Position numbers and translations under genes: made by a program
Shown here: positions 10,049-39,779 of the stretch, one piece after another
Layout: every line of letters begins with the position of its first letter
Position numbering within the stretch: position 1 is the first letter of the stretch
From: Desulfuromonas sp.
GTDB lineage: Bacteria; Desulfobacterota; Desulfuromonadia; Desulfuromonadales; UBA2294
Direction: 5' to 3'
Assembly (NCBI GenBank): GCA_002869615.1
Contig: PKUH01000021.1
Location: forward strand, 1-48,046
DNA: 48,046 nucleotides
Notes under the pieces: generated by a model
Databases searched by the model: none
What the model was told of the DNA's origin: nothing
The model's input: only the letters and a program-made list of their open reading frames with translations

Positions 10049-10056
10049 TATCGAGC

Positions 10057-13601: not shown

Positions 13602-13608
13602 GGTTTTC

Positions 13609-14370: not shown

Positions 14371-14386
14371 CGGTGGTCCTTTCCGG

Positions 14387-15391
14387 TCATTTCGATATTG
14401 CCGTTTGCAGATCAAGAAAAAGCGCCTCTTCCCGGGCTGCGCATTGCTGAAGCAGTTCAGCCAGGTTGTCAAACGAGTCCTGGATCGTCGCCCGGCCGCG
14501 GCATACCCGTGAGGCGATCAGGGCAAAGTCGCGCCAGAGATCGCCGACTTCGGTACAGCTCCGTGAGAGTTCTTCAAGCCTTGAATTTTCGAGAATCCCG
14601 GCTGCTTCCTGCAGGAAGGCGGCGTAGATAAAGCGGAAACCGCCGCCGCCGGTTCCGATCTCTTCCTGCATCCGGATAATGTGGCCGAGATGAAGAATCG
14701 TTTTCTTTTCGCCGAGCTTGTTCGGCCATTTACGCAGCTGGCGCGAGAGCAAGCGGATGCCGCGGACCCCGGCCAACGGCACCGGCGTTTTCAGCATCAC
14801 CCGGCAGACTTCACGGATGCCGGCATCGACGGCTGTCGGCAGGTCGAAGCTCTCCGGCATCCTGTCGATGTAGTAGATTTTCCCCTTCGGGGCGAGGGCC
14901 CCCTTGGCAAAGCGGGCCTTGCGCAGATCAGGTGCCGGACAACGGACCGTCTCCTCGAAGATCGGATCACTGATCAGGTATTCATTACCTTCCTTGCCGA
15001 TGACGACGAGGTTGTGACCGTTAAAATGGAAACGGTAGGCCGGCGGGAAAAATGGCAGCCAGAAGACTCCGGTCTGGGCACCGACCGGGGTGCCGGCGGC
15101 AAGCAGCCGGTCAAGTTCTCGCTCGGCTGCAGCCGGACTGCGGAAGGTCTGCTTCTTCACTTCGATGCCGAGGCGCCTGGTCGCTTTTCTGAAAATCGAC
15201 CCCGGACCGGTCCGGAAGGTCGTCAGCGGCAGGAAATTGAGTTTGACGAACGGGACGTAGCCGAAGAACAGGCCGCCGCCGATACCGAACGCCATCGCCT
15301 CGGAACAGGGGAACCCGTGGTGGTTCAGAAGATTGGCGGTAACCCCGCTCTCGCAATGAGCAAACTGGCGATGTTGAAAATCGATCATCAT
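14387..15391 (-). CDS. BtrH-like acyltransferase (BtrH N-terminal domain plus DUF4872-type C-terminus)
   Basis: The 334-residue protein resembles BtrH, which moves an acyl group from an ACP to an amine in butirosin biosynthesis. The papain-like N-terminal domain shows a candidate catalytic triad: Cys13 in 'FAHCESGVT', His126 in 'HFNGHNLVVIG' and Asp142 in 'LISDPIF'. The C-terminal half is helical. In this cluster it is a good candidate for releasing an ACP-bound chain onto an amine or hydroxyl acceptor, which is inference. It overlaps the preceding small gene by 4 bases (ATGA) and is followed by the ABC ATPase 16 bases later. Confidence 0.8.
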   Translation of the reverse strand: MMIDFQHRQFAHCESGVTANLLNHHGFPCSEAMAFGIGGGLFFGYVPFVKLNFLPLTTFRTGPGSIFRKATRRLGIEVKKQTFRSPAAAERELDRLLAAGTPVGAQTGVFWLPFFPPAYRFHFNGHNLVVIGKEGNEYLISDPIFEETVRCPAPDLRKARFAKGALAPKGKIYYIDRMPESFDLPTAVDAGIREVCRVMLKTPVPLAGVRGIRLLSRQLRKWPNKLGEKKTILHLGHIIRMQEEIGTGGGGFRFIYAAFLQEAAGILENSRLEELSRSCTEVGDLWRDFALIASRVCRGRATIQDSFDNLAELLQQCAAREEALFLDLQTAISK

Positions 15392-15834
15392 CCCGATATT
15401 CCTCCCGGGGGATTGAGCTCGTCGAGTGACAGATCGGGCGCCTCCGGGATCTGCTGCAGGGTCTCGACCGAGATGCCGAACAGCTCGGCATAAGGAGTCA
15501 GGTCATCCGGGCCAAGCCTGGTGAAAACAGCCGGTTTGAGATGGCGCTTGACCCGCCAGCGGGCGATGCCGGAGTAACGGGCGAGCAGGGCCGGGTCCAT
15601 CTGGTTCTTGACCATGTGGTAAGCGAGGGGGCTTTTTGCTCCCGATCTGATTTCTTCAAGCACGTCGTTGAGCTGGTCAATAATCTCTTCCCAGGCCTGA
15701 CGCAGGGCGATGTTCTTCGCTTCCCAACCGACACTCGATTCGAGGGTATAGTGGCCCTGTTCGTCGACAGCGTAGTTGATTTCCCGGCAGCCGGCGTTGA
15801 GCCCGCCCTGTTGCGGTACGTCTTTTTTCTTCAT
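15388..15834 (-). CDS. Conserved small cytoplasmic protein of unknown function
   Basis: I do not recognise a named family. The 148-residue product has no signal peptide or membrane helix. Residues about 30-65 are helical ('WEAKNIALRQAWEEIIDQLNDVLEEI'), and residues about 70-130 ('SPLAYHMVKNQMDPALLARYSGIARWRVKRHLKP', then 'LTPYAELFGISVETL') look like a Cro/XRE-like helix-turn-helix with a trailing helix. That could be DNA binding or a protein-interaction fold. It overlaps the BtrH-like gene by 4 bases and starts 3 bases after the PagL-like gene, so it belongs to the operon and may be a BtrH partner or a local regulator. Confidence 0.6.
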   Translation of the reverse strand: MKKKDVPQQGGLNAGCREINYAVDEQGHYTLESSVGWEAKNIALRQAWEEIIDQLNDVLEEIRSGAKSPLAYHMVKNQMDPALLARYSGIARWRVKRHLKPAVFTRLGPDDLTPYAELFGISVETLQQIPEAPDLSLDELNPPGGISG

Positions 15835-16429: not shown

Positions 16430-17482
16430 TCACGCCGACAGGCGGATCAGACCGTAATCTCCTCCCGGTCCGAACTTGAGGCAGGAGATACCATCCTCTC
16501 CGGCGTCATCACCCGAAGCAGCCGGCGCGGCAAAGTGGCGGCCCTCTTTCAGGGAGAGGGCTGCGACCGCCAGGTCGAAACCGGCGGCGGCCGGGAAGCT
16601 GCCGTAAAGTGGGGTATAGGATGCCGCCGGTTTTCCTGCCAGGGTTTCGGCGTACCATTGGCCGCAGGCGCGGTGACCGTCGGCGCCGGCGATAATAAAG
16701 TCATTTTCGGGCAATGCGAGCGGCGCGGCGCAGTGGTTGCCAAGAGTGACCGTGTCGATATATCCGTAATCCGTCTGCTGCTCGTCGCCGCTCAGTACGA
16801 AAAAGGCAGCCCCTTCACCGACCATGGCGCTCTGCCGGTCAAAGTCGAACTGTGCCATCGGACCCTTCTCACCGTCGCCGAAAAAACTCTTGCGGCAATA
16901 GCGCAGAACATCGCAGTATTCATCGGTCGCGCCGAACAGAACCTGGTCAACCCGGCCCTCGGCCAGCCACTGCCGGGCTGTCAGCAGGGCCGAAGGGACC
17001 GACATTTCGAACTGGGTGACGGTCAGGCTCGGCGCCGTCGCCTTGAACTGCATCGAAACATGAGCGGCCGCGGCGTTGTGGACCGAGTTGGAAAAATGGG
17101 TCGGCGAACTGCACGAATAGCCGAAATCGAGGTATGAATCGAGAAAATCGAAGGTTGTCTTCAGGGCACCGTAACCGGTCGCGATGACTACGCCCATGCG
17201 CGAACGTTCGGCCTCGAGCAGATCGGCCTCCTTAAGAGCGAGGCTGGCACTGAGAAGGGTCATTTTCGAATAGTGGTCGATGCGGCGCAGGGCCCGTTTC
17301 GGGATAAATTCATCGAGTCCGTCGATCGCGGCGCGGTAGCAGGGGAAACGGTCGATCTTGCCGTTGCGCTCGACCGCAGCACTCTGCGGTTCTACCTGCC
17401 CGGCCTGCAGGGCCTGGTGCAGCGCTTCGCTGCCCTGACCGAAGCCGCCGGAGATCCCGATACTCTGAATCGCCATCCGCAT
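16430..17482 (-). CDS. Full-length chain-length-factor-like ketosynthase homologue (no active-site Cys)
   Basis: The 350-residue product has the KS fold ('YSKMTLLSASLALKEADL', 'VVIATGYGALKTTFDFLDSYL', 'GEGAAFFVLSGDE'). The nucleophile segment reads 'LTVTQFEMSVPSALL'. Ungapped alignment with the active KS just upstream puts Glu159 at the Cys position, and the later His motifs are lost. That is the pattern of type II PKS chain-length factors, where the position is usually Gln. It probably pairs with the KS at 17484-18671. GTG/ATG choice: ATG 17491 touches the AAGGGGG site, so ATG 17482, nine bases away, is preferred. It overlaps the stop of the KS gene closely, suggesting coupled synthesis of a heterodimer. 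Confidence 0.82.
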   Translation of the reverse strand: MRMAIQSIGISGGFGQGSEALHQALQAGQVEPQSAAVERNGKIDRFPCYRAAIDGLDEFIPKRALRRIDHYSKMTLLSASLALKEADLLEAERSRMGVVIATGYGALKTTFDFLDSYLDFGYSCSSPTHFSNSVHNAAAAHVSMQFKATAPSLTVTQFEMSVPSALLTARQWLAEGRVDQVLFGATDEYCDVLRYCRKSFFGDGEKGPMAQFDFDRQSAMVGEGAAFFVLSGDEQQTDYGYIDTVTLGNHCAAPLALPENDFIIAGADGHRACGQWYAETLAGKPAASYTPLYGSFPAAAGFDLAVAALSLKEGRHFAAPAASGDDAGEDGISCLKFGPGGDYGLIRLSA

Positions 17483-17483
17483 A

Positions 17484-18671
17484 TCAATCATCCCCCTTGC
17501 CGAGAATCAGAACCGCATTGTTGCCGCCGAAGGCGAGCGATTCCGACAGCGCGAAGTCGCCATCGATCTGCATTCTTTCGGTGACCGGTGTACCACTGAC
17601 CTCCGGGTCGGCATCGCTAAAGCCGATATTCGCCGGCAGCTCGCCGCGGCGCAGGGATGCGACACTGAAGACCGCCTCGATGCCGCCGGCAGCGCCGAGG
17701 GTATGGCCGGTATAGCCCTTGGTCGAGAGAAACGGGACGCCGGGGAGCATCGCCGCGAGAACGCCGCTTTCCACCTTGTCATTATCCGGCGTGCCGGTGC
17801 CGTGGGCATTGACAAATGCGATCTGCTCCGGGGCGATACCGGCGGTGGCAAAAGCCTCGTTCATCGCCTGCTTGAGGCCGGCGCCATCCGGTCGGGGTGC
17901 GGTCAGGTGATAGGCATCACAGGCCGAACCGTATCCGACAACGGTGCCGCGGGCCTTCCTGTCGCCACCGACGGCAGCGCTCTCAAGGATCATGATGCCG
18001 GCCCCTTCGCCGAGATTGAGCCCCTTGCGGTTGATATCGAACGGTTTGCACGGCGCCGTATCGGTGATCATCAGCGAGCTGAAGCCGGCATAGGTGACCC
18101 GCGAGAGCTCGTCGGCGCCGCCGGCGATAACGATGTCGCAGGCGCCGGCCCGCAGCCACGCGGCGCCGATGCCGATCGCATCGGTGCCGGATGAGCAGGC
18201 GTTGACCACGGTCTGGGTCGGCCCGTCGAGCTTGAGCTGGCGGGCGATGACCGCCGCCGGGTTGCTCCGCAGGAAGCGTTCGATGATGTCCATTTCCGGG
18301 TCGTCGCCATCCTTGTAGGCGCGATAGAAGTCGTCGCAGTTGAGGGCGCAGCCGACGGTCGTGCCGATACAGACCCCGACCTTCTTGCCGCGCAGCGACG
18401 CTGCGTCCCAGCCGGCGTCGGTCAGCGCCTCGAGAGCGGCGGCGAGAGCGAGCTGGCTGGTCCGGGCATAAACCTTCTCCTGGTCGTCGAGCGGCAACTT
18501 GAATTCATCGCGCAGCTCGAGCACCGGGTAGCTCGCCGGGTGATCGGTCGAAAAGCGGAATGGCGGCTGCGGGTTGCGTTCGCCGCGCAGCATGCTCTCC
18601 ATGCATTCGGAGAGATTCATGCCGGCGCCGCAGAGGCAGCCGAGTCCGGTGATGGCAATGCGCCGGTTCAT
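17484..18671 (-). CDS. Beta-ketoacyl-ACP synthase (FabF-like), distal KS
   Basis: The 395-residue KAS II-type enzyme has a complete triad: Cys159 in 'VVNACSSGTDA', His290 in 'FVNAHGTGTPDND' and His323 in 'TKGYTGHTLGAAGG'. It extends an ACP-bound chain by decarboxylative condensation with malonyl-ACP. It lies between its probable ACP (3 bases upstream) and the chain-length-factor homologue (overlapping downstream), a complete KS/CLF/ACP set separate from the proximal one at 25-27 kb. This suggests a second chain or a different length-controlled extension. Confidence 0.93.
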   Translation of the reverse strand: MNRRIAITGLGCLCGAGMNLSECMESMLRGERNPQPPFRFSTDHPASYPVLELRDEFKLPLDDQEKVYARTSQLALAAALEALTDAGWDAASLRGKKVGVCIGTTVGCALNCDDFYRAYKDGDDPEMDIIERFLRSNPAAVIARQLKLDGPTQTVVNACSSGTDAIGIGAAWLRAGACDIVIAGGADELSRVTYAGFSSLMITDTAPCKPFDINRKGLNLGEGAGIMILESAAVGGDRKARGTVVGYGSACDAYHLTAPRPDGAGLKQAMNEAFATAGIAPEQIAFVNAHGTGTPDNDKVESGVLAAMLPGVPFLSTKGYTGHTLGAAGGIEAVFSVASLRRGELPANIGFSDADPEVSGTPVTERMQIDGDFALSESLAFGGNNAVLILGKGDD

Positions 18672-18925: not shown

Positions 18926-19873
18926 TTACTCCTGTTTGTCTTGCCGTATTGATTGCGGCGTCGCCGCCCACATATTGTGAAAGTTGTAAAACTGGTACGG
19001 GTAATTCCGGCTGAAGGCTTCAAGGGCCTCAGCAAATTCGCTGGCATACGGTGCGAAGGTCTCGGCTTCACGACCCGGATGATCCGGTACCCGGATGATC
19101 CGGGCAATTTCGACCTCGTAGCTGTCCGGCCCGCTCTTGCGGGTAAAGAAGATGATGACCGGGGCGCCGGTCGCCGAAGCGAGCTTGAAGGCGCTGAACG
19201 GAAGCGTTGCCCTGGCCCCGAGAAAATCAACCGAACAACTGCTTTTGTCGCTGCCGAGCAGACGATCGCCCATGACGCTGACGACATGTCCCTGCTTGAG
19301 GACTCCGAGCATCTCGAGAGTGCCGCCGAGATAACCGGTCGGGTCGATGACCCGGTAAGGAGGTTCGATCCCGGCATGTTCAAAATAATGCCGGTCGATG
19401 TCGCCATCTTCCTGTCGCATCAGCATGTGCACCGGCCGTTCGAGAAACTCGAGAACCGACATCGCAACCTGCCAGCAGCCGACGTGGGCCGTCATCAGGA
19501 TCATGCCCCGGTTTTCATCCCGGATTTTCAGTAGCTCTTCGCGTCCGGCCAGGCTGACCTTGAATGATTTCGGGCCGAGGATGCCGACCACGGCCCGATC
19601 AATCAGGACCTTGCCGAAGTTGAGAATCATCCGGTAGCTGTGCCAGAGTCGTTGCCCGCCGGTTGCCCCGGGGAATCTCCGGCTCAAATAGTGGCTCGCT
19701 CGTTGCCGGGCCAGACGGCTGAACAGCACGTAGTAACCAACTACGAAATATAACACAAAATAGGCCGCACGACGGCCGCCAATTTTTATCACCAGATAAA
19801 AAAACTGGTGCTGCCAGTTCCTGCCGATGCTGCGGCTGCTCCACCGGTTATTCTGTTCAGGCTGTTTCGACAT
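18926..19873 (-). CDS. LpxL/HtrB-type (LPLAT) acyltransferase
   Basis: The 315-residue protein belongs to the lysophospholipid acyltransferase superfamily. It has an N-terminal membrane segment near 36-52 ('AAYFVLYFVVGYYVLF') and the core 'MILMTAHVGCWQVAMSVLEFL'. The catalytic H-x4-D/E motif appears as His130 to Gln135, so the acidic partner is Gln here. Relatives accompany a GT2 gene in aryl polyene clusters, where they are thought to build the lipid anchor. It overlaps the upstream GT2 gene by 17 bases, so the two products are probably made together and act in sequence at the inner membrane. Confidence 0.83.
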   Translation of the reverse strand: MSKQPEQNNRWSSRSIGRNWQHQFFYLVIKIGGRRAAYFVLYFVVGYYVLFSRLARQRASHYLSRRFPGATGGQRLWHSYRMILNFGKVLIDRAVVGILGPKSFKVSLAGREELLKIRDENRGMILMTAHVGCWQVAMSVLEFLERPVHMLMRQEDGDIDRHYFEHAGIEPPYRVIDPTGYLGGTLEMLGVLKQGHVVSVMGDRLLGSDKSSCSVDFLGARATLPFSAFKLASATGAPVIIFFTRKSGPDSYEVEIARIIRVPDHPGREAETFAPYASEFAEALEAFSRNYPYQFYNFHNMWAATPQSIRQDKQE

Positions 19874-21032
19874 CTTTCCTCTGAACGAGTTGGGCCAGCA
19901 GAAGGGTTACAAGACCGACCAGCAGGGCAAGAACCGGGGCCAGCACCAGGGAACCGAGCAGCCATTCATAAACCCGTTCAAGGGCCTGATAGCCGAGGGT
20001 CTCCAGAGAGAGTTCGGTCAGCCAATGCCCGTGCCGCATGAAATAGCCGAGCTCGATGCAGAGTGCCGGCACGATCGGCGGCATGCAGAGCTGGCTGCTG
20101 CTGACCGCCGCCACCTTGTTCAGGCGGAAAAAGCCGCAGACCATGAGGATGATCACGGTGTGGCAAAAAATAAGCGGCAGGGCACCGAGCAGGACACCGA
20201 CCCCGGCAGCGACGGCGAGGCGTTGCGGGGTGCTGTTCTCCTGCAGCAGCTGCCGGATCGAACGCAGCGGGTGGATGACCGAAACGGTCCTCGGCTGTCC
20301 CTTGTCCGTCTGCTCGATAATTTTCCGGTGCGGCCACGGGATAATCGAACGGCCGGTCAGGTGGGTATTGAGCAGGGTCAGGCGCCAGTTGTCGAGGAAC
20401 CGGCGGAAATGTGAGATCCGTTGATCAGCCGGCGGGTAATAGACTGAAATATCGAGGTCACGCAGTTCCAGCCCGGCCCAGGCCGAACGGACCAGCACCT
20501 CGACTTCAAAGTTGTAGCGGCAGCACCAGAATTTCAGGTGTTCGAAGATCATCAGCGGGTAGGCACGAAAGCCGCTCTGACTGTCCTTGAGCTGGCAGCC
20601 GGTCTGGACGCGGAGCCAGAAGTTGGAAAATTTCCGGCCAAAACGGGATGATCCGGGAATCGAGGCCTGGTCGAAGTCGCGATGACCGACGATCAGCGCC
20701 TGCGGATGTTGCTCGATAGCGGCCAGGAAACGAGGGAGGTCGGCCGCGGCGTGCTGGCCATCGGCGTCGATCGTGATCATGTGGCTGCAGCCCTGCTCAA
20801 GCCCCCATTTTGCAGCGGTCTGTAGAGCCGCCCCTTTGCCGAGATTGCGCGGGTGCCGGATCAGGTCAACCGGCAGGCCGGTGAGGGCCGCGGTGACGTC
20901 GTCACTGCTGCCGTCATCGACAACCAGGACCCGGTCATGTTGTGCAAGCACACCCTCGACCACGCCCCGCAGGGTTGCCGCATGGTTATAAACCGGCACC
21001 GCGACAAATATGTCAGTTCGCTCAACGGCCAT
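19857..21032 (-). CDS. Family 2 glycosyltransferase fused to a DUF2062 membrane domain
   Basis: Residues 1-240 form a GT-A family 2 transferase resembling dolichyl-phosphate mannose synthases: 'VFVAVPVYN'-like start, 'VLVVDDGSSDD', 'LGKGAALQ', 'TIDADGQH' for nucleotide-sugar and metal binding, and 'DSQSGFRAYP'. Residues about 265-385 are a DUF2062 domain with hydrophobic helices ('LAVAAGVGVLLGALPLIFCHTVIILMVCGFF', 'LLGSLVLAPVLALLVGLVTLLLAQLV'). It should add a sugar to a lipid acceptor at the inner membrane, perhaps the anchor of the polyene. It overlaps the radical SAM gene before it by 11 bases and the LPLAT gene after it by 17. Confidence 0.9.
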   Translation of the reverse strand: MAVERTDIFVAVPVYNHAATLRGVVEGVLAQHDRVLVVDDGSSDDVTAALTGLPVDLIRHPRNLGKGAALQTAAKWGLEQGCSHMITIDADGQHAAADLPRFLAAIEQHPQALIVGHRDFDQASIPGSSRFGRKFSNFWLRVQTGCQLKDSQSGFRAYPLMIFEHLKFWCCRYNFEVEVLVRSAWAGLELRDLDISVYYPPADQRISHFRRFLDNWRLTLLNTHLTGRSIIPWPHRKIIEQTDKGQPRTVSVIHPLRSIRQLLQENSTPQRLAVAAGVGVLLGALPLIFCHTVIILMVCGFFRLNKVAAVSSSQLCMPPIVPALCIELGYFMRHGHWLTELSLETLGYQALERVYEWLLGSLVLAPVLALLVGLVTLLLAQLVQRKDVETA

Positions 21033-22470
21033 AACGCTTGTTACTCACTGCGAAGCGGAGGAATTGGCCGGCATTGGCAATGAACCGGCGCCAGCTGTCG
21101 GGCGATTTCCAGAGCATACTCAGATAGCCGAGCAGCACCCGGTTCCGCTTGAAATGGTTTTTGTAGAATTCGATAAACAGTTTCTCAAGCTGTTGTTCCT
21201 CCATGCCGTGCGGCACGAACTGGAAATGCATGCAGTCCATCTTCGGCCAGTCTTCATCGAAAGCTCCGAGTTCGTGAATGTTCTCGTAGATCGGCGAGCC
21301 GGGAAACGGGGTGAACTTGGCGAGATTGAAGTCATCGATCGGCAGGGAGTAGACGTAATCCATACTCCGCCGGATCGACTCTTCGGATTCACCCGGCAGC
21401 CCCATCATCAGCAGACCCTTGGTCCGGATGCCGCACGATTTGATGGTGCGGATGGTAGTGGCGAGCAGATCGAGGTTGGCGTTCTGTCGATGTTGGGCCA
21501 GTAGTGCCTCGTCACCGCTCTCGATGCCGAGGCTGACCATCCAGCAGCCGGCTTTCTTCATCAGCTGCAGCAGCTCGTGGTCGACATGTTCGGCCCGCAC
21601 CGCGCAGTTGTAGGTCATGCCGAGCGGCTGGTCGATCATCAGTCGGCAGAACTGCTCGACCCGCTGGCGCTGGAAGGTGAACTGATCGTCATAAAAGTTG
21701 ATATGGCGGATTCCGAAGCGTTGCTTCAGGTACTTGAGATGCTCGTAAAGGTACTCCGCCGAATTGAAACGGAAGCTCCGCTGAAAGACGCTGCGGTCAC
21801 AGTAGCTGCAGCTGTAGGGGCAGCCGCGGCTCGAGATGCAGCTGCTGTTCGGCGCCTTCGGGTAGTTGAAGATCGGCAGCTTGTAGGCATCGGGGTAGCC
21901 TTCAAGTTTTTCATAGGCCGGGAACGGCAGTTCGTCGAGGACCAGAGCGTCGTTGCGGTAGCCGTTGTTGACGATTGCTCCGTCGGTGTCGCGCCAGACG
22001 ACGCCGCCAATGTCGCGCGGCGGCTCACCGGCGAGCTGCGCCAGCTCGATCATCGTCTGTTCCCCTTCGCCGATAACGGCGTAGTCGATGACCGGGGAGA
22101 ATTCGAGGACCTTCTCCTGGAGCGCCGAGACGTGGGCGCCGCCGAAGGCGGTCCTGATCTCCGGCAGCTCCATCTTGGCAAGCTCGGCCAGGCGGACCGA
22201 ATCGTGAAAGCTCGCCGTCGTACAGCTGAAACCGATCAGGGCCGGTTTGTGCTCACGCAACAGTTCGAGCAGACGGCTGTCGGCATCGGGATGGGCATAA
22301 CAGTCGAGGATGCTGCTGTTCAGCCCCGCCTTGTCGAGGCAGGCGGCGATACTCGCCAGTCCGAGCGGCGGCATAATGTTCGCCTTGCGCGAGATGTCGT
22401 TGGCGGCGGCATCGACCTGGTAGCCGAGGGGGTGAACCAGCAGAATATTTTGAGCGTTTAAAGTTGCCAT
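21022..22470 (-). CDS. Radical SAM enzyme with B12-binding-type domain (third of the tandem)
   Basis: The 482-residue enzyme has a B12-binding-type N-terminus ('ILLVHPLGYQVD', 'PPLGLASIAACLDKAG', 'ALIGFSCTTASFHDSV', 'TAFGGAHVSAL', 'YAVIGEGEQTMIELA'), a radical SAM motif Cys217-x3-Cys221-x2-Cys224 ('CPYSCSYC'), and 'SLGIESGDEALL' and 'LLMMGLPGES', the usual barrel strands with SAM contacts. The C-terminal extension is rich in aromatic and basic residues. Related proteins methylate unactivated carbons or rearrange C-C bonds. It starts 7 bases after the previous radical SAM gene and overlaps the GT2 gene, placing it between chain synthesis and lipid anchor genes. Confidence 0.9.
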   Translation of the reverse strand: MATLNAQNILLVHPLGYQVDAAANDISRKANIMPPLGLASIAACLDKAGLNSSILDCYAHPDADSRLLELLREHKPALIGFSCTTASFHDSVRLAELAKMELPEIRTAFGGAHVSALQEKVLEFSPVIDYAVIGEGEQTMIELAQLAGEPPRDIGGVVWRDTDGAIVNNGYRNDALVLDELPFPAYEKLEGYPDAYKLPIFNYPKAPNSSCISSRGCPYSCSYCDRSVFQRSFRFNSAEYLYEHLKYLKQRFGIRHINFYDDQFTFQRQRVEQFCRLMIDQPLGMTYNCAVRAEHVDHELLQLMKKAGCWMVSLGIESGDEALLAQHRQNANLDLLATTIRTIKSCGIRTKGLLMMGLPGESEESIRRSMDYVYSLPIDDFNLAKFTPFPGSPIYENIHELGAFDEDWPKMDCMHFQFVPHGMEEQQLEKLFIEFYKNHFKRNRVLLGYLSMLWKSPDSWRRFIANAGQFLRFAVSNKRYGR

Positions 22471-22477
22471 GTTTTGA

Positions 22478-23836
22478 TTATGCGGAGCCTTCTTTTGGAA
22501 AGCGGACCAAACTGTTCCACATCAGCCCGCGTAAGCCGAAGTTCTTCATCACCTCAAGCCGTATGGTCCCTTCCGACGGCGGGAAAATCCGGTTCTTCTG
22601 TCCGTGGAATCGGGTCTTGATCGTCGCCTCCATCTTCTCGCGATCGATCTTCGGCGAAAAATAGTAGACCGGCTTGAGCAGCGAGGTTTCGGCTGTGATC
22701 ACGCCATCGTCGATTGCCCGTTGGTGCAGCGGCGAGTCGGGGTGGATGCGGATGCCGGAGAAGCCAAAGACGACCGATGCCCCGAGCCTGTCCATGTTGT
22801 CGAGCCCTTCGGCCAGGGTGTCGTCATCCTCTTCCGGGCCACCGAATATGACGAAGTGGGCGGCCGCCATTCTTTCGGCAAGGCAGGCCTCGTTGATCGC
22901 CAGAACCTCGGCAAAGGTCAGCTTCTTGTCAAGCCCGGCCAGGGTCCGGTCGCAGCCGGCGTCGGGACCGAGCTCAAGGGCGTAAAGACCGGCCCGCTTC
23001 ATCAGCTGCAGCTCGTCGCGGCCAAACCCCTGTGGCCGGAAATAGGCCGACCATTCAATTCCGATATCGTTGCGGATCATTGCTTCGCAGAGTTTGAGGT
23101 ATTCGCCCTGCGGGTCGTTGAAGACCGAATCGGTGAAGAAGATGCGCTCGACGCCGTGTTTCTCCTTGAGGGATTTAAGCTCCCTGATCACCAGCTCCGG
23201 ATCGCGGCGGCGAAAGCTGTTCCCTTCGAGGTGCGGGTACGAGCAGTAGGTGCAGCGGTACGGACAGCCGCGCTTGGTCTGGAGGTTGAGCATGCCGCTC
23301 TGTTCCAGGTAGAACGGCGCCAGCTCCGGGTCGAACAGCGGCGTGCTGAAGGCGTTGCCGTCGAGCGGTGCCGCCCGTTCGATCACCTGCGGAACCTGCT
23401 CGCCCCGGGCCAGTTTTTCGACCAGCTGCGGCAGAGCGACTTCCCCTTCACCGATAATCGCGTGGTCGACTTCGAGGTAGCTTGCGATCTCCTCCGGCAT
23501 AATGGTCAAAGCCGGACCGCCGACAACGATCGGAGCCGGGCAGAATTCCCGGATCGCGGCAACCAGGGTTTTGACCCGGGCCAGATACCAGGCGTCCTCG
23601 CCGGAGAACGAGTCGACGTTATCGATATTGCGCAGCGAGATCGAGATCAGATCGGGCATAAATGTGGTGATCCGGGATCGGAGTTTTTCAATATCATCGC
23701 CGTTGACCAGGCAGTCGTATTGTTCGACCTCGTGCCCGGCCGCCTTGACCGCACCGGAAACGACCGCCATACCGAGCGGATAGACCGGGTAGGGATCGAC
23801 GGTAACATTGCTGGAGATGAAAAAAACGCGACTCAT
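22478..23836 (-). CDS. Radical SAM enzyme with B12-binding-type domain (second of the tandem)
   Basis: The 452-residue product shows 'PYPVYPLGMAVVSGAVKAAGHEVEQYD', 'PDLISISLRNID' and 'APIVVGGPALTIMPEEI' from a B12-binding-type fold, then Cys191-x3-Cys195-x2-Cys198 ('CPYRCTYC'). Later strands include 'FFTDSVFND', 'ALELGPDAGCD' and 'AHFVIFGGPEEDDD'. It differs clearly from its two neighbours, so the three are not recent duplicates and probably do different steps. It overlaps the first tandem gene by 4 bases. Reaction unknown. Confidence 0.9.
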   Translation of the reverse strand: MSRVFFISSNVTVDPYPVYPLGMAVVSGAVKAAGHEVEQYDCLVNGDDIEKLRSRITTFMPDLISISLRNIDNVDSFSGEDAWYLARVKTLVAAIREFCPAPIVVGGPALTIMPEEIASYLEVDHAIIGEGEVALPQLVEKLARGEQVPQVIERAAPLDGNAFSTPLFDPELAPFYLEQSGMLNLQTKRGCPYRCTYCSYPHLEGNSFRRRDPELVIRELKSLKEKHGVERIFFTDSVFNDPQGEYLKLCEAMIRNDIGIEWSAYFRPQGFGRDELQLMKRAGLYALELGPDAGCDRTLAGLDKKLTFAEVLAINEACLAERMAAAHFVIFGGPEEDDDTLAEGLDNMDRLGASVVFGFSGIRIHPDSPLHQRAIDDGVITAETSLLKPVYYFSPKIDREKMEATIKTRFHGQKNRIFPPSEGTIRLEVMKNFGLRGLMWNSLVRFPKEGSA

Positions 23837-25092
23837 GCGGTTTCCTTTTTGAACTGGCGCCGTTTGCGCGGCTCGTAGCGGCGGTAGGTACCGTCCTCGA
23901 TTTCCCGGCGGATCACCTGCTCGAACAGTTTGCCCATCTTCAGGGCGTGGCCGCTGTCGGCGTTGAAGGTGTCCCAGGCATAGTAATACAGCTCCTGCAA
24001 TTTCTCCGGGGTCATCTGTTTCGGCTGGAAGACGACCTTGTCGGCGGTGTACCTGGACCAGTCATTCGACAGAATCCGTCCTTCCTGTTCAAGCTTGCGC
24101 CGGATTGGTGAGTGCGGGAACGGCGTCATAATCGTGAATTCGGCGACGTCGAGTTCGATCTCGATCAGAAAGTCGACGAGCCGCTTGATATCGTCTTCGC
24201 TCTGGTCGTCGGTGCCGAGAATGATCGTGCCTTCGATGCCGATCCCGTGATCCTTGAGCCGCTTGACCCGGTTGCGGATGACGTCGGAGGTGTCGAAGAC
24301 TGCCTGGTAGACGTACCAGGCGCCGGCATCGGCCGCCAGCTTGAGGACCTCGTCGTCATCGAGGATCGGATGCGAGACCCACTTCTTCTTCAGCGGCGCC
24401 ATCGCCTTGAACAGGTCGATCAGCCACTGCTTGTCCTGGGCCAGCGAGTTGTCGACGATGAACATCCGGTTATTGCGGATCGCCTCCATCTCGGCGATTA
24501 CCTTGTCGATCGGCCGCGGCCGGAAGGCCTTGCCGCCGAGGAAGCCGGTGCAGCAGGGGAAGCAATCGAACTTGCAGCCGCGCGAGGCGTGGACGAGGTC
24601 GAGCATCTGGACGCCGCGGTAGTTGTAAAGATCGCGCTCGAGGATTTCACGTTTGGCGGTGCCGACCAGGTTGATATCGGGGTGTTTCTGCATGTAGTCG
24701 TAGACCGGTTTGAGCTCGCCCCGCTTGAAATCGTCAACGACCTCCTGGAAACGGCCTTCGACTTCGCCGAGGAAGACCGAATCGGCGTGCTGCTGAACCT
24801 CCTCGGCGTGCAGCATCGTCGAGATACCGCCGAAGATCACGGTTTTGCCCCGTTCACGGAACTCGTGGGCGATCTCGAAGGCGCGCGGCAGCTGCGAGGT
24901 CAGCATGGTCGAAATGGCGACCAGGTCGCAGTCGGCGTCAAAATCGATGGTCTGCAGGTTCTCATCGGTAAAGTTGATCGTCACCTCTTCCGGCATGGCG
25001 GCCGCGAAAACAACCGGCCCGTGTGGCGGCAGGTGGAATTCGGTTTGCCGATCAAGCTTGGGCCAGCGGGGGTATATCAGTTCCATGTTCAT
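23833..25092 (-). CDS. Radical SAM enzyme with degenerate B12-binding-type domain (first of the tandem)
   Basis: The 419-residue protein starts at ATG 25092 with AAGGAG eight bases upstream. The N-terminal domain ('MNMELIYPRWPKLD', 'DCDLVAISTMLTSQLPRAFEIAHEFRERG', 'TVIFGGISTMLHAEEV') is a reduced cobalamin-type fold. The cluster motif is Cys173-x3-Cys177-x2-Cys180 ('CKFDCFPC'), followed by another Cys. It resembles the + strand radical SAM protein at 8756 in having 'C...CxxCC' and a similar C-terminal 'YTADKVVF' region. It opens the distal half of the operon after the largest intergenic gap (37 bases), which holds its ribosome site but no clear promoter. Confidence 0.88.
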   Translation of the reverse strand: MNMELIYPRWPKLDRQTEFHLPPHGPVVFAAAMPEEVTINFTDENLQTIDFDADCDLVAISTMLTSQLPRAFEIAHEFRERGKTVIFGGISTMLHAEEVQQHADSVFLGEVEGRFQEVVDDFKRGELKPVYDYMQKHPDINLVGTAKREILERDLYNYRGVQMLDLVHASRGCKFDCFPCCTGFLGGKAFRPRPIDKVIAEMEAIRNNRMFIVDNSLAQDKQWLIDLFKAMAPLKKKWVSHPILDDDEVLKLAADAGAWYVYQAVFDTSDVIRNRVKRLKDHGIGIEGTIILGTDDQSEDDIKRLVDFLIEIELDVAEFTIMTPFPHSPIRRKLEQEGRILSNDWSRYTADKVVFQPKQMTPEKLQELYYYAWDTFNADSGHALKMGKLFEQVIRREIEDGTYRRYEPRKRRQFKKETA

Positions 25093-25129: not shown

Positions 25130-25840
25130 TCAGTTCTTTATTTCGAGGCAGATAGCGATCAGCTCCTTGAGGCTTTCAATCGCCTTGCCGTTGAATGTCA
25201 ATTCGGCGCCGGAGAGTTCGAGAGTGCCGTACGGTGAGACACCGGGCCGGCCCCTTTTTTCGAGCAGCAGGAAGAGGCTCCCCGGCTGGTCGTCCACCGC
25301 GGCGAGCTCCGGCGGCGGCGCCAGGTCGGAAATGCCGGCGACAATCCCGTCCTGATCGGTCCAGGCAAGCTCCTCCAGCCCCAGCCGGATCGCGGCCAGG
25401 TAGCTGACGTCGCGCCGGTTGATGATCAGGCTGTTGCCGGTCAGACCGAAGCGGAGAGCCGCTTCACCGAGAAAACAGTTTGGCAGGGTGTAGGCAAAAA
25501 TATTCGGACTCGCCAGTTTGCCCTGCTCCGGAATCATCGTTTCAAGGTAATCAAGATCGGTTATCAGGCAGCCGTAGCGGCTTGCCGCAATAATGCCGAT
25601 CGCTCGTTTATTCGTCCACTCTTCGGCGCCACCGTCGCGCAGGCAGAAGGTTGCGGCGGCCAGGCCGATCCGTGAGAAATTATCGAGGCGGCCGAAGCGT
25701 CGGTCGATGCAGGAAAAAACCTGCTTGCGTGTCGGGATCGGCAGTTCGCCGTCAATCAGCGGCTGAACGAATGCGGTTCGACCGGCTCCGAGGCCGGCCG
25801 GGGTGACCCAGCCGATTCCGTTGATCAATGCCTTCATCAT
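25130..25840 (-). CDS. Truncated chain-length-factor ketosynthase homologue (ApeC-like)
   Basis: The 236-residue protein covers only the N-terminal part of a KS fold ('LINGIGWVTPAGLGAGRTAF', 'FSRIGLAAATFCLRDGG', 'RAIGIIAASRYGC'). At the nucleophile position it has Asp144 ('IINRRDVSYLAAIRLG') in place of Cys, so it cannot condense alone. Short chain-length factors of this size (Ketoacyl-synt_2 type) are characteristic of aryl polyene clusters, where ApeC pairs with the active KS ApeO. It overlaps the KS at 25837 by 4 bases (ATGA), fitting coupled synthesis of a heterodimer. Confidence 0.84.
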   Translation of the reverse strand: MMKALINGIGWVTPAGLGAGRTAFVQPLIDGELPIPTRKQVFSCIDRRFGRLDNFSRIGLAAATFCLRDGGAEEWTNKRAIGIIAASRYGCLITDLDYLETMIPEQGKLASPNIFAYTLPNCFLGEAALRFGLTGNSLIINRRDVSYLAAIRLGLEELAWTDQDGIVAGISDLAPPPELAAVDDQPGSLFLLLEKRGRPGVSPYGTLELSGAELTFNGKAIESLKELIAICLEIKN

Positions 25841-26955
25841 AACACCCCCTGCAGAACGAGCGCACCGTTGATGCCGCCGAAGCCGGAATTGGTGCTGAGC
25901 AGGTACTGGCCGGAGATCTCCCGGCCGGAGGAGCTGACCTGCCCCTGCCCTGCCTCTTCCGGTGTCGTGCAGCCGACCGTTCCGGGGATCTGCTGCTGCG
26001 CCAGAGAGTATCCGGCGATGATCGCCTCGATCGCCCCGGCCGCACCGAGGGTGTGGCCGATGCTCCCCTTGATGCCGTGCAGGGGCGGCAGGTGATCGCC
26101 GAAGATCGTCGCGAAAGCGGTCAGCTCCATGGCGTCATTATATGGGGTTCCGGTGCCGTGAGCACTGATCGCCGCGACCGCCGAGGTGTCGATACCGGCC
26201 CGTTGCAGCGCTTCTGTACTGGCGAGAATCAGGCCGCTGCCGTCACGGGCCGGGGCGGTGACGTGGTGGGCATCGTTGGCGGCGCCCCAGCCGGCAATCC
26301 TGGCCAGCGGTGCATCACCGGCGCCGGCTTCGTTGGTCAACAGCAGGGCGGCACCCGCCTCGCCGAGGTTCAGACCCTGGCGCCCGGCATCGAAGGGTCG
26401 GGCCGGGTCGGGGGAGAGCGCCTGCAACGATGAGAAACCGGAGAAGACGAACTCGCTGAGCAGGTCGGCGGCGTAGACCAGGACCGAATCGGCCTGGCCG
26501 TGGGCGATCAGGGCGGCGCCGCGGGCAAGGGCGATGGTTGACGAAGCGCAGGCGGCGTTAATGTTGGTGCCGCAATCATCGAGGCCGAAGCGCTTGGCGA
26601 TTTTATCGAGCAGCGGTGCAAACAGTACCGCTGCCGGCAGTTTCTGCCCGGCCCGACAGGCGGACTCGAGCCGGTCGATTTCCCCTTTGGTTGAGGCGAC
26701 CAGCAGCCGACTGGCGCCCGGCACCGGGCCGATCTGGTCGGCGAGCCGGTTCAACAGGTCGTCGTGACCTGAATGGTCAGCCGGGGCGACCAGGTCAGCG
26801 ATCACGGCGCCGAGATTTGAAACGTAGTTGTCGCAGCTGAACCGGCTGAGCGGCCGGATGCCGCTTTTGCCGGCCAACAGCTCCTGCCAGAGCCGGTCCG
26901 CTCCGGAACCGAGGGCGGTTACGCAGGCAACCTTGCTGATAAAGACCTTGTTCAC
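25837..26955 (-). CDS. Beta-ketoacyl-ACP synthase, aryl polyene chain elongation (ApeO-like)
   Basis: The 372-residue ketosynthase has a complete triad: Cys136 in 'NINAACASSTIALA', His266 in 'ISAHGTGTPYND' and His301 in 'IKGSIGHTLGAAG'. With the short chain-length factor encoded next, it forms the expected KS/CLF pair that elongates an aryl starter to a polyene on an ACP. The gene overlaps the thioesterase gene before it and the CLF gene after it by 4 bases each. Confidence 0.9.
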   Translation of the reverse strand: MNKVFISKVACVTALGSGADRLWQELLAGKSGIRPLSRFSCDNYVSNLGAVIADLVAPADHSGHDDLLNRLADQIGPVPGASRLLVASTKGEIDRLESACRAGQKLPAAVLFAPLLDKIAKRFGLDDCGTNINAACASSTIALARGAALIAHGQADSVLVYAADLLSEFVFSGFSSLQALSPDPARPFDAGRQGLNLGEAGAALLLTNEAGAGDAPLARIAGWGAANDAHHVTAPARDGSGLILASTEALQRAGIDTSAVAAISAHGTGTPYNDAMELTAFATIFGDHLPPLHGIKGSIGHTLGAAGAIEAIIAGYSLAQQQIPGTVGCTTPEEAGQGQVSSSGREISGQYLLSTNSGFGGINGALVLQGVL

Positions 26956-27413
26956 GTTAACTCCCCCGCCTGCCAGCGTTCGCGGAACGCCTGATGAAAT
27001 GGCGGTGGCACCATCAGGACGTTATGATCGGTGTCCATCAGCAACTGCACCGTGTAACCGCTGGTTGTAATCTCCCCGGCGGCATTGCGCAGAATAAATT
27101 CGTGGTTGAGCCTGGCCGCGTCCGACCAATGGAGAATCGCCTCGATGGTGAAGGGATCGCTGAACTGCAGCGGCCGGTGGTAGTCGACGTGCATCTGTTT
27201 GATCGGCGCAACGATGCCGGCGCGATAAAAATCGAGATAGCCGATACCGTATTTTTCCCCGAGCAGGACCCGCCCGTCTTCGAAATAGCTCGGGTAGCGA
27301 CCATGCCAGACGATACCGAGGGCATCGACTTCCTCGAAACGGGCGGTCCGTTCAACCGAGCAGCGCAGCGGCTCCGGCGCGCCTTCTGTCTTTTTGAAGT
27401 AGGGTTTCCTCAT
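26952..27413 (-). CDS. Hotdog acyl thioesterase (ApeK-like)
   Basis: The 153-residue 4HBT-family hotdog protein shows 'RFEEVDALGIVWHGRYPSYFEDGRVLLGE' with Asp30 and His37 in the usual catalytic region and 'DYHRPLQFSDPFTIEA' after it. It would hydrolyse acyl-ACP or acyl-CoA thioesters, as a proofreading or release step. Aryl polyene clusters normally carry one such gene beside the KS genes. It overlaps both neighbours by 4 bases. Confidence 0.9.
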   Translation of the reverse strand: MRKPYFKKTEGAPEPLRCSVERTARFEEVDALGIVWHGRYPSYFEDGRVLLGEKYGIGYLDFYRAGIVAPIKQMHVDYHRPLQFSDPFTIEAILHWSDAARLNHEFILRNAAGEITTSGYTVQLLMDTDHNVLMVPPPFHQAFRERWQAGELT

Positions 27414-27790
27414 GATTCCGCACTCTCTTCGAGAATCAGGGTGAAGTTTGAAGCCTCCTCGGCGCCAACCTGCATCCGCGTCGCGCAGTGCAGATATCCA
27501 TCTTTTTCACGACAGGTCACTTCGACGTCGATCCGGTCATCCGGCCGGAGCGGCCGACTGAACTTGGCTCGCTTAATCTCGCGGAAGGTGACCGGTTGAC
27601 CGATGATCTGTTCGGCAACAACCTGGGCCAGCAGGTTCTGCAGGACGCCGGGCAGAATCGGGTAGCCCGGGAAATGCCCGGAAAAACCGAGGAACGACTC
27701 GGCGAAGCGGAAACTCTGCCGGCCGCTCTCTCCGCTCAGCGTGGCCGGCGCCAGCGCCGACTGCATGATCGCTTTTCGCATTTTGTTCAT
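27410..27790 (-). CDS. 3-hydroxyacyl-ACP dehydratase, FabZ-like (ApeI-like)
   Basis: The 126-residue hotdog protein carries 'FSGHFPGYPILPGVLQNLLAQ' with His39, close to the FabZ/ApeI consensus GHFPGxPxxPG. It should remove water from 3-hydroxyacyl-ACP in each extension cycle, producing conjugated double bonds because no enoyl reductase is present in the operon. In characterised aryl polyene systems this subunit works with a second hotdog protein; the likely partner is encoded at 31458-31880. It is overlapped by 4 bases on each side. Confidence 0.9.
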   Translation of the reverse strand: MNKMRKAIMQSALAPATLSGESGRQSFRFAESFLGFSGHFPGYPILPGVLQNLLAQVVAEQIIGQPVTFREIKRAKFSRPLRPDDRIDVEVTCREKDGYLHCATRMQVGAEEASNFTLILEESAES

Positions 27791-28455
27791 GGTTCCAGTT
27801 TCACCTCGTGAACCTCGAGTGACAACCTGATGTTATCACGTTGGTCGTTCAGAATGATCTCCTGCGGCAGGCGCCATTTTTCGTGTTCCGCATAGCGGTT
27901 GTAGAGTACCCGCCAGTTGGTGTCCTTTCCCCGCGTGCGGCTTTCACGCAGGTCGCCGCGGCAGTCGAACAGCCCGGTCCGGGTTATGTCGTCGACGGTC
28001 CGGGTCAGTACCCGGTGGCTGCCGATATCGGTCGGCTCTGCATCGCTCGAAGCGGCTGCCAGCAAAAAAATACGGCGCAGGTTTCTGCCGACTGTCGCGA
28101 GCATTTGCGGTCGCTTCTGCAGCGGTGGAATCACCCGGTGGACCTCAGTGTCGTCGGCCGTGAACGTGAGGTCGAACAGGACCAGCCCGACTTCATTCAT
28201 CGCGACCAGGCGCCCTTGACCGGTTTTAAGGTCGAGCCGCAGAAACCCCTGCATCGCCAGTTTGCGAAAGCGGGTCTCGAGCAACATGGTTTGGTGCAAG
28301 CGCCAGACCGCTTTTTGCTGCAGCCACTGTTTTTCCTGCAACGAACCGAGCTCATGGTCTCTCGGGCAATCCTGCGGCAGTACCAGCGGCGGGACCGCCG
28401 GCGCGCAGGCACTGACCAGAACCAGAGCAAAAAGCAGGAACGCCAGCCACCGCAT
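27787..28455 (-). CDS. DUF3261 lipoprotein of aryl polyene clusters
   Basis: The 222-residue product has a lipoprotein signal ending in 'LVLVSAC' (Cys16). The mature part is beta-rich ('GFLRLDLKTGQGRLVAMNEVGLVLFDLTFTADDTEVHRVIPPL'), as in DUF3261 proteins and with a resemblance to LolB-like barrels. It follows an MMPL exporter and a LolA-like carrier gene, the usual trio in aryl polyene clusters, where it is thought to help deliver the product to the outer membrane. The stop and start with the MMPL gene overlap by one base. Confidence 0.85.
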   Translation of the reverse strand: MRWLAFLLFALVLVSACAPAVPPLVLPQDCPRDHELGSLQEKQWLQQKAVWRLHQTMLLETRFRKLAMQGFLRLDLKTGQGRLVAMNEVGLVLFDLTFTADDTEVHRVIPPLQKRPQMLATVGRNLRRIFLLAAASSDAEPTDIGSHRVLTRTVDDITRTGLFDCRGDLRESRTRGKDTNWRVLYNRYAEHEKWRLPQEIILNDQRDNIRLSLEVHEVKLEP

Positions 28456-30827
28456 CAGCCGGACCTCGGCCGGAAAGCCGGGATGACCAGCACCGCCGTC
28501 GGAACGGCCGCCGAAATACCGAGCAGCACGGTCAGACCGATTGAATGCAAGGCCGGATGCCGGGCCAGAATCAACGCCCCGAAGCCGACCAGCGTGGTCA
28601 GGCCGGAAACCACGATCGCCCGGGTCGAGGCGGTCTCGGCGGTTTGCCGGCTGTGGCAGACCATGAATATTCCATAGTCGACGCCGAGACCGATAATCAG
28701 AATCGTCGCGATCACGTTAAACAGGTTCATTTCGATCCCGAGCCAGCCCATGCCTCCAAACATCGCCAGCAATCCGGTCAATACCGGCAGCAGGGCGAGC
28801 AGGACATCCTGAATCCGGCGGAACAGCAGGAGCAGAAGCATCAGGACGGCGAGTCCGGCGTAAATGATGAAATTGGCAAAATCGGCAGCAATCTCGCGGC
28901 TCAGCTGGCGCCCGAAGCGGCTTTGCGAAACAAGGGTCACTCCGGGGATTGCGGCGAGTGACGGTTCCAGCTTTTCGATCAACTGCGGCCGATCGGGGAT
29001 GAGCGAAATCAACTGAGCGCCCTCTTTCTTTTTCGGCGCGAGATTGTCAAGCAGGCCACCGAGCCCCCACTGCTCAAGGCTTTTTGTGCTGATCGGTTCG
29101 GGGGTTCGTTCCAGGGAATCGAAAAAAGGCTGAAAAGCGTCCCCGGAAAAACCGTACTTGAGACCTGCACTCTGGACCAACCGGCTGGTCCGGTCTCCGT
29201 TTCTCTGCCAGAAGCGCTGCCAGTTATCAAGCCGTTGCTGCTGGGTTGCCGGAGCGGCGATAAGCGGTGCCAGGCTGACCGCTTCCGACTCGACCTGCTG
29301 CTGTTTGAGCAGCTGCCAGACCTTCTGGTTGGTATCGAGAGCGTCATCCATCGTCTCGGCGGCAACAAAAACCAGGGCGCGGTCACGCATCCGGCCCCAG
29401 ACATCAGCCAGTGATTGCTCGGCCCGCCGAAGTTCCTCCGGCCGGTAGCTGAGCTGGCGCAGTTCGCCGTTGATCGTCATGTTCTGGGCCTCAAAGGCAC
29501 TGACCATTGCCACCCCGAACCAGAGCAATACCACGACCCAGCGCAGGTTCGGCTGTTCGCGAAAAACCCGGTTAAGGTCGAACCAAGTCCTTGTTGATCG
29601 GGTTGCGCTGTTCGAGCCGACGTAGTGTGGCAGAACCAGCAGCGCCAGCATAAGTGCCGTGATGATGCCGGCCATGGCAAAAATGGCGAGCTGGCGTTGC
29701 CCCGGGAGATCCGAATTGAGCAGGATTGAAAACGCCGCCAGTGTCGTCAGGCCACCGAACAGGACCGGTCGGCTCACCGCTTTGAGCAGCGCCGGGCGCA
29801 ACCCGCTTCCGTGCTGCAGGGCAAAATAGACATGCAGACCAAAATCGATGGTGATGCCGAGCAGGACCGCGCCAAAACCGATGGTAATGCCGGAAACCCG
29901 GCCGAACCAGAGCGATGTGATCACCAGCGCCGCGGCAATGCAGAACAGCGGCAACAGGAAGACCGCGACAGCGTGCAGCCGCCGTAAAAAAAGGGTGAAC
30001 AGGAGCAGGATTCCGACCCCGGAGACGACGAGGACGCGCTGCATATCCTTCTGGATCGCCTCGGCGTTGGCCAGGGTATAGGGATGTCCGCTCAACAGGT
30101 CGGCGGTAATACCGACCGGCAGTACCCGGCGCGCCCCGGCAAAGGCGTCGACCAGTTTGCGCCCGGCGACGGCGTCGGTAATCAGGGCCGGGGTGTCGGC
30201 GAGGAGCAGGCTGCTCCGGCCGTCGGCGCTGACGAACTGACCCTGTTCGATGCGGACTCCCGGCAGCGGATTAAGATAGCCGAGTTTGGCGAAAGCCAAT
30301 TGTTGCAGGCCGAGCGGATCGTGGCGTATGGACTCCTTCAGGGCAATGCCCTGGGGCTGTAGCAGTTCGGCAAAACGGGTTGCCAGCTGCCGGTCGATTT
30401 TCTCCGGGGTCAGTTGCTGTTCGATCTGCTCGAGATCGTCCGCTTCCAGCAGAAAAGGCAAGGCGTTGCCGAGCCCCCTGGTCAAACCGATCGGATCGAT
30501 GTCGGTCGGGCCGCTCAACAGGTTGCGGAACAGGTCGGCCGGTAATGCGGCCCGCAGCCGGTCGGTTGCCGCGAGCAGCTGCTCGAGCGGAACATCCGGT
30601 TCGGCCCTCAGGTGAATCACCAGCTTGCGGGCGAACGGGGCCTGTTGCAGCAGCCCGAAATCGCTGGCGACGCGCGAGTCACCATCCGGCAGCATGGCGA
30701 CGATACTCTGTTCGACCTCGAGCCGCGAGAGCAGGCCGCCGGCGATCAGCAGCAGCACCAGCAGGGCTATGGTCAAGCCGGTTCTGCGGTGTTCCAGCTT
30801 CTCGTATGTCGTCGCAATCAGCTTCAT
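28455..30827 (-). CDS. MMPL/RND-type exporter of the aryl polyene cluster
   Basis: The 790-residue membrane protein has two repeats of one helix, a large periplasmic domain and a helix bundle. The first bundle is near 260-400 ('GVGILLLFTLFLRRLHAVAVFLLPLF'), with 'GITIDFGLH' on the inner helix. The second is near 655-785, with 'IIGLGVDYGIFM', the Asp-bearing motif of RND/MMPL proton relays. It should move the lipid-like product from the inner membrane toward the periplasm, using the proton gradient. The LolA-like carrier gene ends at its first base and the DUF3261 gene starts at its last. Confidence 0.92.
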   Translation of the reverse strand: MKLIATTYEKLEHRRTGLTIALLVLLLIAGGLLSRLEVEQSIVAMLPDGDSRVASDFGLLQQAPFARKLVIHLRAEPDVPLEQLLAATDRLRAALPADLFRNLLSGPTDIDPIGLTRGLGNALPFLLEADDLEQIEQQLTPEKIDRQLATRFAELLQPQGIALKESIRHDPLGLQQLAFAKLGYLNPLPGVRIEQGQFVSADGRSSLLLADTPALITDAVAGRKLVDAFAGARRVLPVGITADLLSGHPYTLANAEAIQKDMQRVLVVSGVGILLLFTLFLRRLHAVAVFLLPLFCIAAALVITSLWFGRVSGITIGFGAVLLGITIDFGLHVYFALQHGSGLRPALLKAVSRPVLFGGLTTLAAFSILLNSDLPGQRQLAIFAMAGIITALMLALLVLPHYVGSNSATRSTRTWFDLNRVFREQPNLRWVVVLLWFGVAMVSAFEAQNMTINGELRQLSYRPEELRRAEQSLADVWGRMRDRALVFVAAETMDDALDTNQKVWQLLKQQQVESEAVSLAPLIAAPATQQQRLDNWQRFWQRNGDRTSRLVQSAGLKYGFSGDAFQPFFDSLERTPEPISTKSLEQWGLGGLLDNLAPKKKEGAQLISLIPDRPQLIEKLEPSLAAIPGVTLVSQSRFGRQLSREIAADFANFIIYAGLAVLMLLLLLFRRIQDVLLALLPVLTGLLAMFGGMGWLGIEMNLFNVIATILIIGLGVDYGIFMVCHSRQTAETASTRAIVVSGLTTLVGFGALILARHPALHSIGLTVLLGISAAVPTAVLVIPAFRPRSG

Positions 30828-31453: not shown

Positions 31454-31457
31454 TATT

Positions 31458-35592: not shown

Positions 35593-35601
35593 CGTAGATT
35601 C

Positions 35602-38548: not shown

Positions 38549-38551
38549 GGG

Positions 38552-39766: not shown

Positions 39767-39779
39767 AACGGTTTCTCCC

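Follow-up and report, generated by a model that had tools for sequence, protein, structure and literature searches.

Three adjacent B12/radical SAM genes form a conserved module in a flexirubin-like gene cluster of Desulfuromonas

The flexirubin clusters of Chitinophaga and Flavobacterium (PMC3992019) and the arcuflavin cluster of Azoarcus (PMC3949708) share with the locus described here a FlxY-like ligase, several ketosynthases (KS), dehydratases, LolA, an exporter, acyltransferases, a glycosyltransferase, a DarB-family enzyme and BtrH-type and ABC genes, with an ammonia-lyase in common with flexirubin. The present locus differs from them in carrying four B12/radical SAM genes, in the lack of a recognised DarA, in its variable starter genes and in its distribution among anaerobic lineages. 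A second set of similar clusters has been known since 2009 from anammox bacteria and deltaproteobacteria, with Geobacter and Pelobacter already mentioned, and was filed near ladderanes (Rattray 2009); the Kuenenia kuste3335-3352 and Desulfotalea clusters of that report have an rS2-type gene (see below), a CoA ligase, a CrtD-like enzyme, MMPL and GT2 in common with ours. We found no literature joining radical SAM enzymes with flexirubin, and literature on aryl polyenes with radical SAM yielded nothing on this cluster. Our additions are the interpretation as a flexirubin-type cluster, the exchange of starter genes and a fourth B12/radical SAM enzyme.

Gene content of the cluster

We analysed a 48,046-nucleotide contig of Desulfuromonas sp. 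(PKUH01000021.1; hereafter the window), which encodes the following features.

8756-10048 (+): fourth B12/radical SAM protein, HpnR-like, overlapping darB; missing from the first reading
10045-11205 (+): StlD/DarB-family beta-ketosynthase (dialkylresorcinol synthase family; 588 bits, cut-off 450)
12285-14472 (-): ABC transporter permease and ATPase, beside the Dar genes
14387-15391 (-): DarH, BtrH-related acyltransferase (478 bits, cut-off 300)
15388-15834 (-): DarG-family dialkylresorcinol biosynthesis protein (148 bits, cut-off 70)
16430-18671 (-): second KS/CLF pair, KS_D and CLF_D
18926-21032 (-): LpxL-like acyltransferase and GT2-DUF2062 glycosyltransferase, directly downstream of the trio
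21022-22470 (-): rS1, B12/radical SAM protein, apparent distant HpnJ/BchE relative (482 aa; CxxxCxxC at residue 217)
22478-23836 (-): rS2, TIGR04072 lipid-biosynthesis B12/radical SAM protein, TsrM/BzaD-like (452 aa; CxxxCxxC at 191)
23833-25092 (-): rS3, B12-fold radical SAM protein of an unnamed family (419 aa; CxxxCxxC at 173)
25130-26955 (-): KS_C and a short KS-like CLF_C, directly upstream of the trio
26952-31892 (-): thioesterase, ApeI-like dehydratase, LolB-like protein, MMPL exporter, LolA, ApeP-like dehydratase
31880-33469 (-): aromatic amino-acid ammonia-lyase, FlxA/HAL-like, putatively a tyrosine lyase (457 bits against the FlxA cut-off of 700)
33466-34785 (-): FlxY-like acyl-CoA ligase (480 bits, cut-off 520)
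34786-40511 (-): acyltransferase, KS_B, CrtD-like FAD enzyme, KS_A, FabG

In order of transcription the operon reads FabG, KS_A, the CrtD-like FAD enzyme, KS_B, acyltransferase, FlxY-like ligase, ammonia-lyase, ApeP-like dehydratase, LolA, MMPL and LolB-like genes; then the ApeI-like dehydratase, thioesterase, KS_C, CLF_C, rS3, rS2, rS1, GT2 and LpxL-like genes; and last KS_D, CLF_D, PagL, DarG family, DarH, ABC ATPase and ABC permease. An acyl-carrier-like reading frame, read by eye, lies on the minus strand near 12000-12266.

Because the DarB-family, DarH and DarG-family proteins pass curated cut-offs and the gene types match those of the published flexirubin and arcuflavin clusters, the locus looks like a flexirubin-type cluster, that is, one for an aryl polyene plus dialkylresorcinol lipid pigment. 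The product may nonetheless differ from flexirubin, since both the FlxA and FlxY equivalog cut-offs are missed and no DarA aromatase was recognised among the scanned open reading frames of the window. The more specific models are likewise missed by the DarB-family gene (496 against 550 for DarB itself) and the DarG-family gene (138 against 170 for the flexirubin DarG equivalog), and NF053540 (LolB2_flexi) has no match here. We also considered the RSHAAG motif of the ammonia-lyase as a guide to tyrosine or histidine specificity; the motif cannot decide, and published FlxA likewise looks HAL-like at this position (PMC3992019).

The pairing of an HpnR-like gene with a StlD/DarB-family gene recurs beside other clusters (L036, L082, L067, L029, L118 and L120). 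The pair (8756-11205, +, in the window) stands where aerobic clusters have darA adjoining darB.

The trio as a conserved module

The three genes between the KS/CLF and the glycosyl/acyl-transfer genes had been picked out by the original prediction as radical SAM/B12-type enzymes with separate functions in a polyene lipid operon, and this description holds up well. The CxxxCxxC motifs lie in the radical SAM domains of all three products at exactly the residues given (173, 191 and 217), the setting in a polyene lipid operon is supported, and the flanks are a KS with a truncated KS/CLF upstream and the GT2-DUF2062 and LpxL-like genes downstream. Transcription runs from rS3 through rS2 to rS1, with a 4-bp overlap between the first two and a 7-bp gap between the last two, a spacing from which we infer that the genes are probably co-transcribed in that order. 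The Pfam B12-binding and Radical_SAM domains score above cut-off in rS1 and rS2 (B12-binding 89.6 and 63.8, respectively), and in rS3 both fall just under it (28.6 vs 32.1 and 24.1 vs 29.5 bits); the AlphaFold2 model of rS3 (pLDDT 89.7) has a full Rossmann plus radical SAM fold with the same two domains as its siblings.

Mutual identity is 21-26% (pairwise, over partial alignments), and on a 45-row tree each protein falls into a separate clade supported at 100/99 or higher, which rules out a recent tandem duplication and agrees with separate families. A housekeeping identity was also considered and rejected: scores against MiaB/RimO and hopanoid families are far under cut-off, and in the comparison with housekeeping families the three are not tRNA enzymes, rS1 being nearest to HpnJ but at 194 vs 578 bits.

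A scan for rS3 relatives with one genome per species, reaching close relatives only, returned 77 loci, of which 76 were counted, the window included; rS3 is present in every one by construction, and some loci are cut by contig ends. The full trio, which Geothermobacter and Desulfuromusa carry among others, occurs in 43/76, an rS3-rS2 pair in 20/76 and rS3 with neither partner in 13/76. Because the same three genes adjoin one another in 43 loci, their adjacency is not chance: the trio is a real conserved module, with rS2 in a known family and rS1 and rS3 in unnamed ones. The loci nearest to the window come from Desulfuromonas and Desulfuromusa metagenome-assembled genomes (MAGs), and the carriers are by their titles Desulfuromonadales, Geobacteraceae, Nitrospirota, Kiritimatiellota, Lentisphaerae, Bacteroidales, Hydrogenedentes and others, for the most part MAGs from lineages that we take to be anaerobic. 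Within the order, 25 of 58 genomes have rS3 matches, 22 of them full-length orthologues and the rest a fragment or more distant paralogues. The third gene, rS1, is an optional addition that occurs in Desulfuromonadales and in a small number of other groups. None of the 77 loci, from a scan limited to close relatives, belongs to an aerobic flexirubin producer.

Three loci (L063, L071 and L084) carry rS3 near a CrtD-like enzyme with neither rS2 nor rS1 and represent another type of cluster using rS3. An AAT-type acyltransferase adjoins rS3 in L063 and L071, and in L063 a KAS III-like gene and a pair of genes for enoyl-CoA hydratases lie close to rS3 as well.

Family relationships and substrate of the three enzymes

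The second enzyme, rS2, is a full member of TIGR04072 (rSAM_ladder_B12; 652 bits, cut-off 360) and the sole member within the trio, rS1 (106) and rS3 (44) falling outside; the ladderane association of the family name is unsupported here. Its next-best families are BzaD (208 bits) and then the TsrM family (TIGR04428, 119.5 bits, under the cut-off of 500). BzaD is a methylase acting on an aromatic carbon, and TsrM is an arene C-methylase that methylates C2 of tryptophan. TsrM is also the closest solved relative of rS2 by both sequence and fold (TM 0.86; rS2 model pLDDT 91.3). The loop after strand 3 supplies the residue beneath the cobalt in class 1 B12/radical SAM enzymes: Asn in OxsB, Trp in TokK and Arg69 in TsrM (PMC13331322; PMC8992657). 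TsrM also has Glu273, which keeps SAM off the cluster. When the rS2 profile is aligned to TsrM with HMMER, R68 of rS2, invariant in 24/24 sequences, aligns with Arg69, and the Glu273 position is V or I. Because the Arg at the lower face of the cobalt is shared and the SAM-blocking Glu, a feature of TsrM, is replaced by an aliphatic residue, rS2 looks from its sequence like a methylase with a TsrM-like cobalt site in which SAM is free to reach the cluster, so that radical chemistry remains possible. A C-methylase is thus the probable identity of rS2; the likeness to TsrM leaves its substrate unfixed.

In its sequence rS1 appears as a distant relative of HpnJ and BchE, its nearest named families by profile, although it is far under both cut-offs (TIGR03471, 193.8 vs 577.6 bits; TIGR02026, 176.5 vs 481); on the 45-row tree it groups first with an unnamed paralogue of its own genome and next with an HpnJ (98/93), and the branches are long. 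Its residue at the lower face of the cobalt, placed by hand alignment rather than by structure, is Thr83 (invariant in 18/18).

No family scores above cut-off for rS3 (best NCBIfam match 58 bits), yet it is the best conserved cluster gene across phyla, with a mean column identity of 71% and identities to Nitrospirota of 63-66%, compared with 40-45% for KS_C and 37-39% for rS2. AprD4 is its only PDB match by sequence profile and clearly its best fold match (Z 31.6, 2.6 A over 372 residues; MgmA follows with Z 25.9 and OxsB with Z 23.6), and this fold, together with a B12 domain under the Pfam cut-off, means that rS3 may not bind cobalamin. Against the AprD4 family model (NF033070, cut-off 500 bits) rS3 scores 24.9 and rS1 100. 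One reading of these data would make rS3 an AprD4-like, non-cobalamin radical dehydratase, which would dehydrate a hydroxylated chain and so form double bonds without a FabA-type enzyme. We find this improbable: identity to AprD4 is only ~17%, the substrate of AprD4 belongs to a different class (an aminoglycoside diol), and dehydratases are already present in the cluster. The Rossmann features and the invariant lower-face residue (Met62 in 32/32, again by hand alignment and not from structure) are moreover compatible with cobalamin. In L062 (11254-12261) a second rS3-like reading frame that lacks CxxxCxxC follows the full rS3; it is possibly a degenerate duplicate, or else a second partner.

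As to the substrate, the trio might modify the aromatic parts of the product, that is, the hydroxyphenyl head group or the resorcinol ring, by C-methylation or oxygen-free aromatisation, and leave the polyene chain alone. The closeness of rS2 to the aromatic-carbon methylases TsrM and BzaD points this way, and so does the methionine-derived methyl of flexirubin, which lies in the fragment traced by d3-methionine feeding (PMC3992019). The annotated genes of the cluster include no recognised classical methyltransferase, and the HpnR-like enzyme overlaps darB in a window where DarA is unrecognised, both of which would also fit. The trio sits, however, with KS_C and CLF_C, away from the Dar genes, and the starter genes argue further against an aromatic target. 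Among the 16 assessable trio clusters, defined as those with the acyltransferase-ApeP stretch visible, the lyase and ligase are both present in seven, the lyase only in two, and neither in the other seven. No FlxY-like gene passing 1e-60 and no close copy of the lyase (best matches 34-37% identity) was found elsewhere in the seven starterless genomes. The six clusters inspected mostly retain the upstream order FabG-KS_A-CrtD-KS_B-AT-ApeP, apart from a gene inserted or lost here and there, and no starter replacement was recognised upstream in them.

The trio is, then, independent of the aryl starter pair. Since 7/16 clusters have neither lyase nor ligase, the trio does not need an aryl head group, and the persistence of these trios makes methylation of the aryl ring no longer the leading proposal for rS2. 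It may be that starterless clusters are primed with an aromatic CoA thioester supplied by central metabolism, which would restore the aryl ring as a possible substrate; on balance we regard action on the aromatic parts as rather unlikely. Because the trio does not depend on the aryl starter pair, the polyene chain is the favoured substrate. To this extent the original prediction that the enzymes act on the chain stands, as a preference among substrates, and the action itself is something that we infer.

Starter genes also vary outside the trio clusters. In all seven assessable rS3-rS2-ligase clusters of Nitrospirota and Kiritimatiellota, a SPASM radical SAM protein fused to ApeP replaces the lyase. 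Such fusions occur in L052, L054-L058, L060 and L061 (e.g. L060:2070-3557, +) and are a possible alternative route to the starter unit. They contaminated our in-house ApeP profile, which explains why an anammox protein of 368 aa was unexpectedly labelled ApeP.

Ladderanes and the proposed pathway

The name of TIGR04072 (rSAM_ladder) and the similar clusters reported from anammox bacteria and deltaproteobacteria (Rattray 2009) suggest another role, in which the trio enzymes, or descendants of them, cyclise polyene chains into the cyclobutanes of ladderanes. We searched genome-wide for TIGR04072 and rS3 in 16 planctomycete genomes with HzsA-sized HZS_alpha matches, chosen by ORF length and regarded as anammox bacteria (HzsA-positive). 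TIGR04072 is above cut-off in three of these (G148, G228 and G318), and the two such clusters examined contain FlxY-like, SPASM radical SAM, rS2, FabG (or a dehydratase in its position), MMPL, CrtD-like and GT2 genes, in agreement with Rattray 2009. It is below cut-off in the other 13, which include genomes whose matches lie on single chromosome-sized contigs, and a close rS3 is present in none of the 16 (the best match has 266 bits, against about 800). Ten of the 16 genomes carry a sister family of rS2, and in the four loci examined no neighbour of it was recognised as a cluster gene. The Kuenenia-type clusters differ from ours in the absence of a close rS3 from the anammox genomes examined and in a ligase-adjacent second radical SAM gene of the SPASM type (one cluster examined). 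Because TIGR04072 is above cut-off in only 3/16 and a close rS3 is found in 0/16, the trio is not needed for ladderanes. Ladderanes were also undetected in Desulfotalea despite its cluster (Rattray 2009), and the present cluster contains Dar genes. A ladderane role of the trio is unlikely, contrary to the link originally drawn, and cyclobutane formation by these enzymes or their descendants is in our judgement very improbable.

In one anammox genome (G182; L107:8270-14189, -), a different B12/radical SAM protein adjoins a CrtD-like enzyme, two KS genes and a dehydratase, and matches of corresponding size to it occur in nearly all 16 HzsA-positive genomes. Its gene is a better ladderane candidate than the trio.

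Taken together, we consider it fairly likely that the trio serves as the radical-SAM tailoring module in a flexirubin-type cluster that is adapted to a strictly anaerobic host, with the following reactions. Polyene assembly would fall to type II KS/CLF, FabG and ApeP/ApeI-like enzymes, with a 4-coumaroyl unit from the FlxA/FlxY-like pair as the usual starter. The core enzyme of the module, rS3, would act right after KS_C/CLF_C, most likely on the carrier-bound polyene; rS2 would most likely move one or more methyl groups from methylcobalamin to sp2 carbons; and rS1 would make a further change, more likely of an HpnJ/BchE-type, non-methylase kind. The dialkylresorcinol would come from DarB/G/H-type proteins, which would also attach it to the polyene, and the LolA/LolB/MMPL and ABC proteins would export the product. 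A bolder extension, which we put forward only tentatively, is an oxygen-free branch of flexirubin biosynthesis in anaerobes, in which rS3, rS2 and rS1 and the HpnR-like partner of DarB perform new chain and ring chemistry.

If this is true, many so-called ladderane clusters outside anammox bacteria would be oxygen-free flexirubin-type clusters, and rS3 would represent a new reaction class on carrier-bound polyenes. Clusters called ladderane-like since 2009 would gain a concrete product class, testable in the culturable Desulfuromusa kysingii and Geothermobacter hydrogeniphilus, and the search for the ladderane synthase is pointed away from the trio enzymes. The module ties two uncharacterised B12/radical SAM families, rS3 and rS1, to a putative lipid pigment, and rS2, with its apparently TsrM-like cobalt site and free SAM site, could reveal new C-methylation chemistry on polyenes.
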